Positions 20,203 through 29,029 of a stretch of DNA of 36,592 nt are shown piece by piece. The notes below the pieces were generated by a model that was not told where the DNA came from, made no database searches, and was given only the letters and a program-made list of their open reading frames with translations. Location of the stretch: IMG/VR virus record IMGVR_UViG_3300044627_000772, positions 1 through 36,592 of that record. One strand, given 5' to 3'. The stretch comes from a virus. Position 1 is the first letter of the stretch; every line of letters starts with the position of its first letter. A program made the position numbers and the translations under genes.

Positions 20203-20688
20203 TCACACTCCTTTATATGTCAATCCATTTAAAACTCGTCTGATTGTTGTTACAGACACTTGATATTGATTCGATAGTTTATCTACAGAATCATTTATTA
20301 ACCTAGATTGACGAATAGTCTTAATCATCTCATCAGTTAATTTGGCAGCACCATTTTTTGATCCAATGGTTGCAGTTCCATGCTTGATAGCATCGGCAAC
20401 ATTTTCTTTTCTTGTCCCCCACCTAAGATTTTCAAGGCGATTGTCTAGTTTATTGCCATTGATATGCAAAGCCTCGCAACCAAATGGACACTCACCCACA
20501 AAGGCATGAAGAAGTAACCTGTGTTTGTAATAGGTTTTGGTTTTGTTATTTGTTGAAAAGCTAACAACTTCATAACCTATTGGCCCAACAGTAAACTTCT
20601 TTTCTCTGCCATTTCTCCAAATACGACCATCTCTTGAAATGTGTGTGTTTGGCAGAAAATCTATTAGCTTGATGTCTTCCATTTCCAT
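20203..20688 (-). CDS. HNH homing endonuclease (NUMOD4-like, C-terminal HTH)
   Basis: A 161-residue protein with the NUMOD4/HNH design of free-standing homing endonucleases: N-terminal [18 protein letters not shown], a [14 protein letters not shown] segment (the HNH first His), [24 protein letters not shown] (central His-Asn and the third element), and a C-terminal helix-turn-helix (ISTIRR-like TTIRRVLNG). It sits between the annealing protein and the SSB-like gene and has its own AGGAG site, as expected for a mobile gene inserted into an operon. It cuts DNA of relatives lacking the insertion and spreads itself. Confidence 0.85.
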
Positions 20689-22451: not shown

Positions 22452-22522
22452 GAAAAGGGTTCCCACTTTTTCCCCTGCCGAGGTTTCTTTGCTTCTAAGT
22501 GGCTTATAAAGTGGAAAATTGT

Positions 22523-23293
22523 ATGCACTACTACAAGAGAAATCTTGGCGACTATGCCAAGAAAGCAGGCCGTCTGACTATGCTTCAACACGGAGCGTAC
22601 ACGCTTCTAATTGATTCGTGTTATGACAGAGAAATCTTCCCTACACTTGAACAAGCACTTGAATGGACTTGGGCTTCAACAGAAGCTGAGATTGAGGCCG
22701 TCAAGTTTGTTTTAAGCAGGTTTTTTACGTTAGATAAAGATGGATGTTATGTGCAAGACAGGATACTTGCAGAGCTACTTCACTATCATAAAAATGCAGA
22801 TACAAATAAACGTATAGCTGATGAAAGAGAAGCAAAGCGTAGAGGAAATAGCACGAATCGTGTACAAGTCGTAGACGAAGCTCCACCTAACCAAGAACCA
22901 CTAACCACTAACCATAAACCAATAAAGAATACAGCAACTATCGTTGCACCGCCTGAAGGCGTTTCTGATTCTGTTTGGCAGGAATTCAAATCTTTGAGGA
23001 AAGCCAAGAAAGCCCCGATAACTCAAAGAGCCATTGATGCCATCACAAGTGAGGCAAACAAAGCTGGTTGGACTCTAGAGAAAGCTTTGGAGGAATGTGT
23101 TGTTCGTGGTTGGCAAGCATTCAAAGCAGATTGGGTTGCGACAAAAGCAAACCCTGCCGACATAGTAAGGCTCACAGTTCCGAGTAAAAATGAGCCTGAC
23201 CCTGCTTTAGAAAAGATTAAGGCTGATGCTTTAAAGGCAGCGCCCATGCCAGAAAGTTTCAGACAGTTTGCCCAACAAGTGAGAAAAGCATGA
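22523..23293 (+). CDS. DUF1376-type replication protein
   Basis: A 256-residue protein. The N terminus, MHYYKRNLGDYAKKAGRLTM then QHGAYTLLIDSCYDREIFPT, is the DUF1376 domain found in phage replication initiation or organiser proteins (residues about 1-100). A polar Asn/Pro linker follows, then a C-terminal helical part (VSDSVWQEFKSLRKAKKAPIT, ALEECVVRGWQAFKADWV) like the helicase-loading half of such proteins. I choose ATG 22523 because the family starts here and GGAAAA lies before it; GTG 22499 is longer. No helicase, primase or polymerase gene is seen, so it should recruit the host replisome. Confidence 0.78.
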   Translation: MHYYKRNLGDYAKKAGRLTMLQHGAYTLLIDSCYDREIFPTLEQALEWTWASTEAEIEAVKFVLSRFFTLDKDGCYVQDRILAELLHYHKNADTNKRIADEREAKRRGNSTNRVQVVDEAPPNQEPLTTNHKPIKNTATIVAPPEGVSDSVWQEFKSLRKAKKAPITQRAIDAITSEANKAGWTLEKALEECVVRGWQAFKADWVATKANPADIVRLTVPSKNEPDPALEKIKADALKAAPMPESFRQFAQQVRKA

Positions 23294-26848: not shown

Positions 26849-27175
26849 TTAATAATTCCTATAAACAATGCCATTAATTGAGTCACCTACATAAACACCT
26901 TCACCCTCAAGATGCTCAATAACTTGCTGCTTTTGATAGTCTTCGTCCATTTCAGCATCTAATTCAATGCCATATTGATCTGCAATGTTTTCAAAAGAAT
27001 CTTCTGAAAAGTCGCAACAAATAGCGATAACATCAAATTCAATTTCTTCACCAGTAGACTCTTCGTATTCTTCTAAATAGTCAAAAAGTATTCTTAATGC
27101 TTGATAAGAGAAATTATCAGGGCGAATTTCGTGGAAATAATCCCTGAATTCTGCAAAATAAACCATTGTTTTCAT
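26849..27175 (-). CDS. Acidic protein of unknown function
   Basis: A 108-residue, strongly acidic protein from ATG 27175 behind GGTGGAAGC. Sequence blocks: MKTMVYFAEFRDYFHE, then FDYLEEYEESTGEEIEFDVIAICCDFSE and a C-terminal IEHLEGEGVYVGDSINGIVY. The charge pattern and size could fit an anti-host or DNA-mimic protein, but nothing identifies it. Start and stop couple with neighbours. Confidence 0.65.
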   Translation of the reverse strand: MKTMVYFAEFRDYFHEIRPDNFSYQALRILFDYLEEYEESTGEEIEFDVIAICCDFSEDSFENIADQYGIELDAEMDEDYQKQQVIEHLEGEGVYVGDSINGIVYRNY

Positions 27176-27340: not shown

Positions 27341-27961
27341 TTATGCTGCTTTTTGTTGAACTTGCATAAAATCAGGGTTTAGCCCTTGATAACTGCCTGG
27401 GCTGTTACGCATTGGCATAATGACCACCAGTGCATCGTTTTGGTCATTGTGTATGACACCAGAATAGTCACCCCTTGAAAGCAGCGGGAAAACTTTTCCC
27501 TTTTTAGACCCGTAATACATGGCTAGTGCTTCGTTTCCCTTAACTATCAAAGCAGGGTCAAAATAACTAGGTTTCAATTCTGAAAATGCGTCACGGGCAG
27601 GGACTACACGGGAAATGTCGGGATAACGTGCGTCAATGGCTTGAAAACGTGCATTGCCCAGCAAGTAATAATCCTTTGCACCACCTTCTATGGTTTCAAG
27701 ATCAATAAATTCTGACTTTTTATCAATGGCTTTGATAGTGTCAGAAGGGATAATGATGCTAAAACCAAAGTTATCAGGGCCTTCAATCACTTCAATGGGT
27801 GATTGACCTGCAAAAAGAATGTGTCCATCAGTCCCGTAAACCATTGCCACTTCTGGGTGATTGAATGAGACACAAACACCTTGCAAATAGTAGCGCAGGT
27901 CTTTTTTTGCAGCACAGATCAAGGCCGCACGTAAAACATTAGTTTTGAGAGTAATTTTCAT
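27341..27961 (-). CDS. Beta sliding clamp-like protein, short form
   Basis: A 206-residue relative of the bacterial DNA polymerase III beta clamp. Residues 1-121 line up with clamp domain II: DLRYYLQGVCVSF (clamp RYYLNGM), GTDGHILFA (clamp TDGHRLA), SIIIPSDTIKAI (clamp VIVPRK) and ARYPDISRVVP (clamp GRFPDYRRVLP). The end, ALVVIMPMRN at 177-186, matches the clamp C terminus VVMPMRL, part of the pocket that holds polymerase peptides. Domain I is missing, and domain III seems to keep only its last half. A 20-residue tail (SPGSYQGLN...) follows. A start behind AAGGTG is clear. It could replace, block or cap the host clamp; ring formation is not predictable here. Confidence 0.85.
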   Translation of the reverse strand: MKITLKTNVLRAALICAAKKDLRYYLQGVCVSFNHPEVAMVYGTDGHILFAGQSPIEVIEGPDNFGFSIIIPSDTIKAIDKKSEFIDLETIEGGAKDYYLLGNARFQAIDARYPDISRVVPARDAFSELKPSYFDPALIVKGNEALAMYYGSKKGKVFPLLSRGDYSGVIHNDQNDALVVIMPMRNSPGSYQGLNPDFMQVQQKAA

Positions 27962-28880: not shown

Positions 28881-28899
28881 GCGAATGCGAATCATTCTC
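28881..28899. promoter_or_regulatory. Fur-box-like sequence
   Basis: GCGAATGCGAATCATTCTC agrees with the 19-base Fur consensus at 14 positions, and the imperfect dyad extends to 28906. It lies in the control region upstream of the terminase genes. A match of this quality can occur by chance in a window this size, so the call is tentative. Confidence 0.3.
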
Positions 28900-28926
28900 A
28901 TTTGCGTTTACTGTACGGAATCACAG

Positions 28927-29014
28927 TAGGGTTTACCCTCATAGGGTTTCTACCTAGGGGTTTACCCTTAAGGGTTAGTACGTAAGGGTAGGGTTTACCA
29001 GTAAGGGTTTACCC
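28927..29014. repeat. Array of about six TAGGGTTTACCC-type sites
   Basis: Copies start near 28927 (TAGGGTTTACCCT), 28942 (TAGGGTTTCTACCT), 28955 (TAGGGGTTTACCCT), 28969 (diverged), 28989 (TAGGGTTTACC) and 29002 (TAAGGGTTTACCCC). Each is a dyad of AGGG and CCCT around TTTA. A perfect palindrome ACCCTTAAGGGT lies at 28964-28975. Matching single copies occur at 21817-21830 and, inverted, at 25573-25584. Position just before the small terminase gene suggests binding by that protein or by a phage regulator. Confidence 0.75.
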
Positions 29015-29029
29015 CCCCCTTGAGTAAAA

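Follow-up and report, generated by a model that had tools for sequence, protein, structure and literature searches.

The question raised by this locus is what a phage might gain from a sliding clamp in which the pocket for partner proteins is kept and the ring-closing parts are missing. The DNA analysed, a viral sequence of 36,592 nucleotides (IMG/VR record IMGVR_UViG_3300044627_000772, positions 1-36,592; hereafter, the window), carries a short gene whose product resembles portions of the bacterial beta clamp (Table 1). The gene begins with an ATG, and the sequence AAAAGGTG is read seven bases 5' of it. All of the clamp landmarks pointed out in an earlier note on this DNA are present in the order stated; besides the motifs in Table 1, they comprise IIP (residues 70-72) and ARYPDISRVVP (residues 111-121). 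The resemblance is far beyond what chance would yield, as the profile matches below show.

The same note had described the product as lacking domain I and half of domain III, and profile alignments bear this out. In a single-sequence search, residues 8-123 matched positions 136-251 of the TIGR00663 (dnaN) model (E=1.7e-9), no other part of the model being matched, with a score of 37.1 bits against an equivalog cut-off of 137.65. A profile search aligned residues 1-187 with positions 1-187 of the 190 in PHROG 3007 (E=7.1e-31). When a profile of the family (47 sequences) was compared with the E. coli clamp by hmmsearch (E=3e-30), its C-terminal stretch fell on clamp residues 313-365. The distance from the FPD to the MPMR motif is approximately 63-89 residues in mini-clamps, as opposed to 121 in the E. 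coli clamp, so that about one half-domain is gone from this interval. From the alignments to clamp residues 136-251 and 313-365, the layout is therefore domain II, the second half of domain III and a tail. AlphaFold2 confidently recovered the anticipated clamp fold both for the window protein (pLDDT 88.3, pTM 0.85) and for a tail-less relative of the EP23 type (L079 8001-8510; pLDDT 94.1, pTM 0.89); with either model, Foldseek found its best PDB matches exclusively among bacterial beta clamps. The mini-clamp is almost certainly a member of PHROG 3007 and a homologue of the bacterial beta clamp.

Table 1. Location of the mini-clamp gene, its parts and other features of the window.
Feature	Position	Strand	Basis or remark
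Mini-clamp gene, 206 aa (stop included)	27341..27961	-	ORF, profile matches, predicted structure
Beta-clamp domain II, residues 1-122	27596..27961	-	TIGR00663, Pfam DNA_pol3_beta_2, E. coli clamp 136-251
Domain III, second half, residues 123-187 (first half missing)	27401..27595	-	Family profile against E. coli clamp 313-365; FPD-MPMR spacing
RYYLQG, residues 23-28	27878..27895	-	Pocket subsite I (E. coli R152, L155); beside DNA-facing K20
TDGHILFA, residues 44-51	27809..27832	-	Pocket (E. coli T172, G174, H175, L177)
YPDISRVVP	27599..27625	-	Pocket (E. coli P242, R246, V247)
VVIMPMR, residues 179-185	27407..27427	-	Pocket (E. coli V360-R365)
Conserved tail, residues 193-206, within YQGLNPDFMQVQQKAA	27344..27385	-	dN/dS 0.028
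Small downstream gene, PHROG 9974 (unknown)	26849..27172	-	Also adjoins the mini-clamp gene in relative L182
DUF1376/O-like replication initiator	22499..23293	+	Site where relatives of ~50% identity have PolA and primase

A gene of this kind could be a normal clamp gene broken by a frameshift or truncation. This was ruled out by the relatives: loci with 69-98% identity are of equal length wherever complete, and the dnaN model, when run against 43 phage records, matched only from about position 115 to 330 and reached its cut-off in none of them. The gene thus stands as a genuine short clamp homologue, as had been supposed. An open frame 5' of the RYYL motif that could fit domain I was found in a single one of the 164 loci read, and searches of the 43 genomes with the dnaN model yielded no full clamp, second clamp gene or separate domain I. 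The cut-down architecture might also be taken for that of a functionless remnant; this reading was rejected as virtually impossible, given dN/dS values of 0.12 for the body and 0.03 for the tail in the window's clade (43 sequences) and the maintenance of the gene across very diverse phages.

Relatives in other phages proved numerous. A tblastn search with the mini-clamp retrieved 176 phage records at E<=1e-3; scans of viral contigs returned 50 loci when the window protein was the query, and two small alignments gave 456 and 497 confirmed relatives. The family is thus common and already known, and the window protein is not unique in it. Mini-clamps occur in phages of Gammaproteobacteria and Betaproteobacteria, in phage-plasmids and in freshwater viruses; some plasmids and bacterial contigs carry further copies. 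Those of Bcep781, BcepC6B, EP23, LPST10 and Serratia phage Eta are similar in length and identical in domain make-up to the window protein, with which the named phage members of PHROG 3007 share 24-31% identity. The records of EP23, LPST10 and Hafnia phage yong1 name the product DNA polymerase III beta subunit, that of Eta has a putative beta-clamp protein, and a note in Bcep781 calls it a "DNA Pol III b subunit fragment". Short, more distant proteins of Burkholderia phage AH2 (gp20, 209 aa; PMC3483164) and Listonella phage phiHSIC (ORF2) also go by the name of DNA polymerase III beta subunit, a likeness of annotation. No functional test of the family was found in the literature searched.

PHROG 3007 itself is labelled "RusA-like Holliday junction resolvase", a name repeated in many RefSeq phage records (e.g., NC_004333 Bcep781-15). 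That label is all that speaks for a resolvase. The mini-clamp has no match to Pfam RusA up to E=10 and adopts a clamp fold, which refutes the assignment at the level of the fold and makes it vanishingly improbable. Since Bcep781 possesses a separate annotated Rus resolvase (gp22) besides its clamp fragment gene, and since the mini-clamp contains no RusA domain, the name looks like a transfer error; it appears to be wrong and to have spread through RefSeq annotation.

What the protein has retained was assessed by comparing the 17 columns of the peptide-docking pocket, as defined in PMC11139829, with the rest of the alignment. Mean conservation was 3.44 bits in the pocket and 1.53 bits elsewhere (p=3e-9). 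The window mini-clamp is identical to the E. coli clamp at 14 of the 17 residues, and the pocket had a dN/dS of 0.083 in the window's clade. Judged by column conservation, the pocket, which had been predicted at the MPMR motif, is the best-kept part of the protein. Conversely, the beta dimer interface involves Ile78, Arg103, Phe106, Ile272, Leu273, Glu298 and Glu304 (PMC11139829), and the segments that hold all seven (domain I and the first half of domain III) are missing from the mini-clamp. On sequence grounds, then, the pocket is retained and the ring-making parts are lost. DnaN (TIGR00663; PDB 1mmi, 2pol, 3bep) has in common with the mini-clamp domain II, the second half of domain III and the pocket residues; it differs in possessing domain I, the first half of domain III and the known interface residues.

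Because the interface-bearing segments are missing, both a standard ring and a cap docking on the interface of the host clamp are unlikely. The idea, raised in the earlier note, of a cap or subunit exchanger, which would have to insert itself at the dimer interface of the host clamp, is weakened accordingly: only general homology to the host clamp speaks for it, and of the two partner surfaces (in the second half of domain I and in the first half of domain III) the mini-clamp has neither. We consider such a role very improbable. The other proposal, a small clamp with a new ring geometry, is improbable to a lesser degree. A homo-oligomer could close a ring, for instance as a tetramer in which three half-domains per subunit add up to the usual 12, and the basic inner helices are partly retained. 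There is also a possible precedent in E. coli beta*, the UV-inducible C-terminal two-thirds of beta, which reportedly acts as a smaller clamp; like the mini-clamp, beta* starts at about domain II, but it retains the whole of domain III where the mini-clamp lacks half. T4 gp45 and PCNA likewise show the clamp fold in proteins of about 200-260 residues, the size range of the mini-clamp; they, however, consist of two full domains and form trimers, and the Pfam gp45 model does not match the mini-clamp. Positive evidence for a new ring did not emerge. The faces needed for it would be the strands of the second half of domain II, which are among the least conserved parts (27% mean identity) and thereby count against a ring. 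Moreover, the second DNA-facing helix of domain II has only five residues in the window model and is absent in the confident model of the EP23-type, enterobacterial-branch protein.

The DNA-facing side is otherwise not featureless. Helices 1 and 2 carry a net positive charge (+2.1 and +1.3, respectively), in a family whose proteins are, as a whole, close to neutral (mean +0.6). Every sequence has K, N or Q (K20 in the window protein) at position 20, the counterpart of the DNA-contact residue Q149 of the E. coli beta clamp, so that a polar or basic residue occupies this DNA-side position in DnaN and mini-clamps alike. These features bring in the main rival explanation, namely, that the mini-clamp is a compact processivity factor which, on DNA and without a closed ring, tethers the polymerase copying the phage genome. 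The polymerase would be a phage PolA where present and host Pol III otherwise, and the protein would work in the manner of herpesvirus UL42, a monomer, or UL44, a C-shaped dimer. Non-ring viral clamps that operate without loaders exist (PMC9690074), and the window record yielded no delta or delta-prime match and no phage clamp loader at the HMM level. Clamps of the UL42/UL44 type bind double-stranded DNA directly through a strongly basic face; the mini-clamp has its positive helices 1 and 2, but a near-neutral charge overall, unlike the strongly basic loader-free clamps.

Genome context cuts both ways. At the HMM level, the window record gave no match to the polymerases of families A, B and C in Pfam, in agreement with the earlier note, and none to the gp45 N-terminal domain (PF02916). 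In diverse relatives, most of the genes that flank the mini-clamp gene serve replication, and the family seen most often among them is DNA polymerase. PolA is the immediate neighbour in BcepC6B and PEi21 and, from coordinates, lies very close in four other genomes (G012, G020, G022 and G025), all of which suits a tether. (In Edwardsiella phage PEi21 the mini-clamp, at L198 5974-6501, is annotated as two short ORFs and may be split or mis-called.) Matches to PolA were found in 23 of 42 mini-clamp genomes, 18 of them over the Pfam cut-off, and in neither the window nor its close clade; absences are less sure than presences because some records are fragments. PolA presence changes at least six times on the clamp tree, three of the changes being forced by starred branches. 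Three relatives of about 50% identity (L181, L182 and L183) have kept the mini-clamp and carry PolA, together with a large second protein, convergent to its gene; in L183 this second protein is DUF5906 primase-like. The replication module is thus exchanged, PolA for a DUF1376/O-like initiator, while the mini-clamp stays.

Such gain and loss of PolA across the clamp tree is awkward for a dedicated polymerase tether. So is the T4-like Morganella phage vB_Mm5, which already has a T4-type polymerase and gp45 and nonetheless carries a mini-clamp among accessory genes (L060 5998-6513), as is the location of the gene among structural genes in Bcep781, EP23 and LPST10. In addition, none of the PolA proteins scanned has a canonical clamp-binding motif. 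Nor are canonical motifs enriched among the phage proteins of 18 sampled records, a point in favour of host partners: they were found 9 times, against 17.8 expected, with a motif definition too narrow to rule out unusual partners from the phage. On balance, a tether is a possible explanation to which we give serious weight, while doubting that it is the right one.

Two further features of the window were noticed. An HNH endonuclease gene (20203-20688) is located between the gene for a Sak-like annealing protein and an SSB-like gene. A series of imperfect repeats following the pattern AGGGTTTACC / TAAGGGT (28890-29020) lies in the divergent region that precedes the gene for the terminase small subunit; it is possibly an origin or a regulatory region.

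The C-terminal tail provides an additional clue. The earlier note had remarked on an extension of some 20 residues; the window protein has 21 residues after MPMR. In the window's clade, the dN/dS of residues 193-206 is below those of the relaxed linker (residues 188-192; 0.29), the body (0.124; 43 sequences) and even the pocket. Since synonymous change in this stretch is high, the constraint acts on the peptide, and this pattern leaves little doubt that the tail has a function in the clade. Sibling clades have different tails, and the EP23 and LPST10 lineages have none. In three siblings (L162 8001-8624, L073 7995-8588 and L090 4742-5341) the tails include QFDLPAP or W[LI][TDE]LP, motifs that resemble the clamp-binding motif of Hda, QLSLPL (PAQLSLPLYL in PMC11139829). 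Motifs of this sort occur in 12 of 34 representative tails versus 0.3 expected, a lead rather than a valid test since the pattern was drawn up after the tails had been viewed and the tails are related. As the tail starts at the wall of the pocket, self-docking is a natural guess; most likely, it would fill or gate the pocket or recruit a partner.

Tentatively, and aware that the case is less than even, we favour the view that the mini-clamp is a ring-less pocket module that binds clamp-binding peptides, those of host proteins more likely than those of phage proteins; this view fits most of the observations. The pocket, which domain II and half of domain III form jointly, would do its work without the segments by which the beta ring is closed, and the protein would be a monomer or would self-associate through its own pocket and tail. 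The clamp-binding motifs recognised would belong to replication or repair proteins, such as Pol III alpha, delta, Hda, MutS/MutL or TLS polymerases of the host. These partners might be diverted from the host clamp or held at phage DNA, and the conserved tail, emerging beside the pocket, would control access to it or bring in a partner. The host-clamp decoy proposed in the earlier note survives in part. The anatomy of the mini-clamp is compatible with such a role; but the replication-gene neighbours, the adjacent PolA, the positive helices and the K, N or Q at the Q149 position better suit a DNA-bound role in replication than a free decoy. In targeting the clamp system of the host, a ring-less pocket module would resemble Gp168 of phage Twort, although Gp168 binds inside the DNA channel of the host clamp and is not described as a clamp homologue (PMC11139829). 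A more far-reaching version, in which a pocket-only clamp, tail-gated in some clades, titrates or redirects host clamp-binding proteins in many unrelated phages, with any polymerase, strikes us as rather unlikely.

Mini-clamps of PHROG 3007 are widespread, yet often mislabelled as resolvase. Should their pocket bind such peptides as clamp partners use, with no ring formed, then the docking function of the clamp has been split in phages from its DNA-encircling function. This, if true, would be a new route by which phages take over the host replisome and a natural starting point for ways to block a site that is a known antibiotic target.
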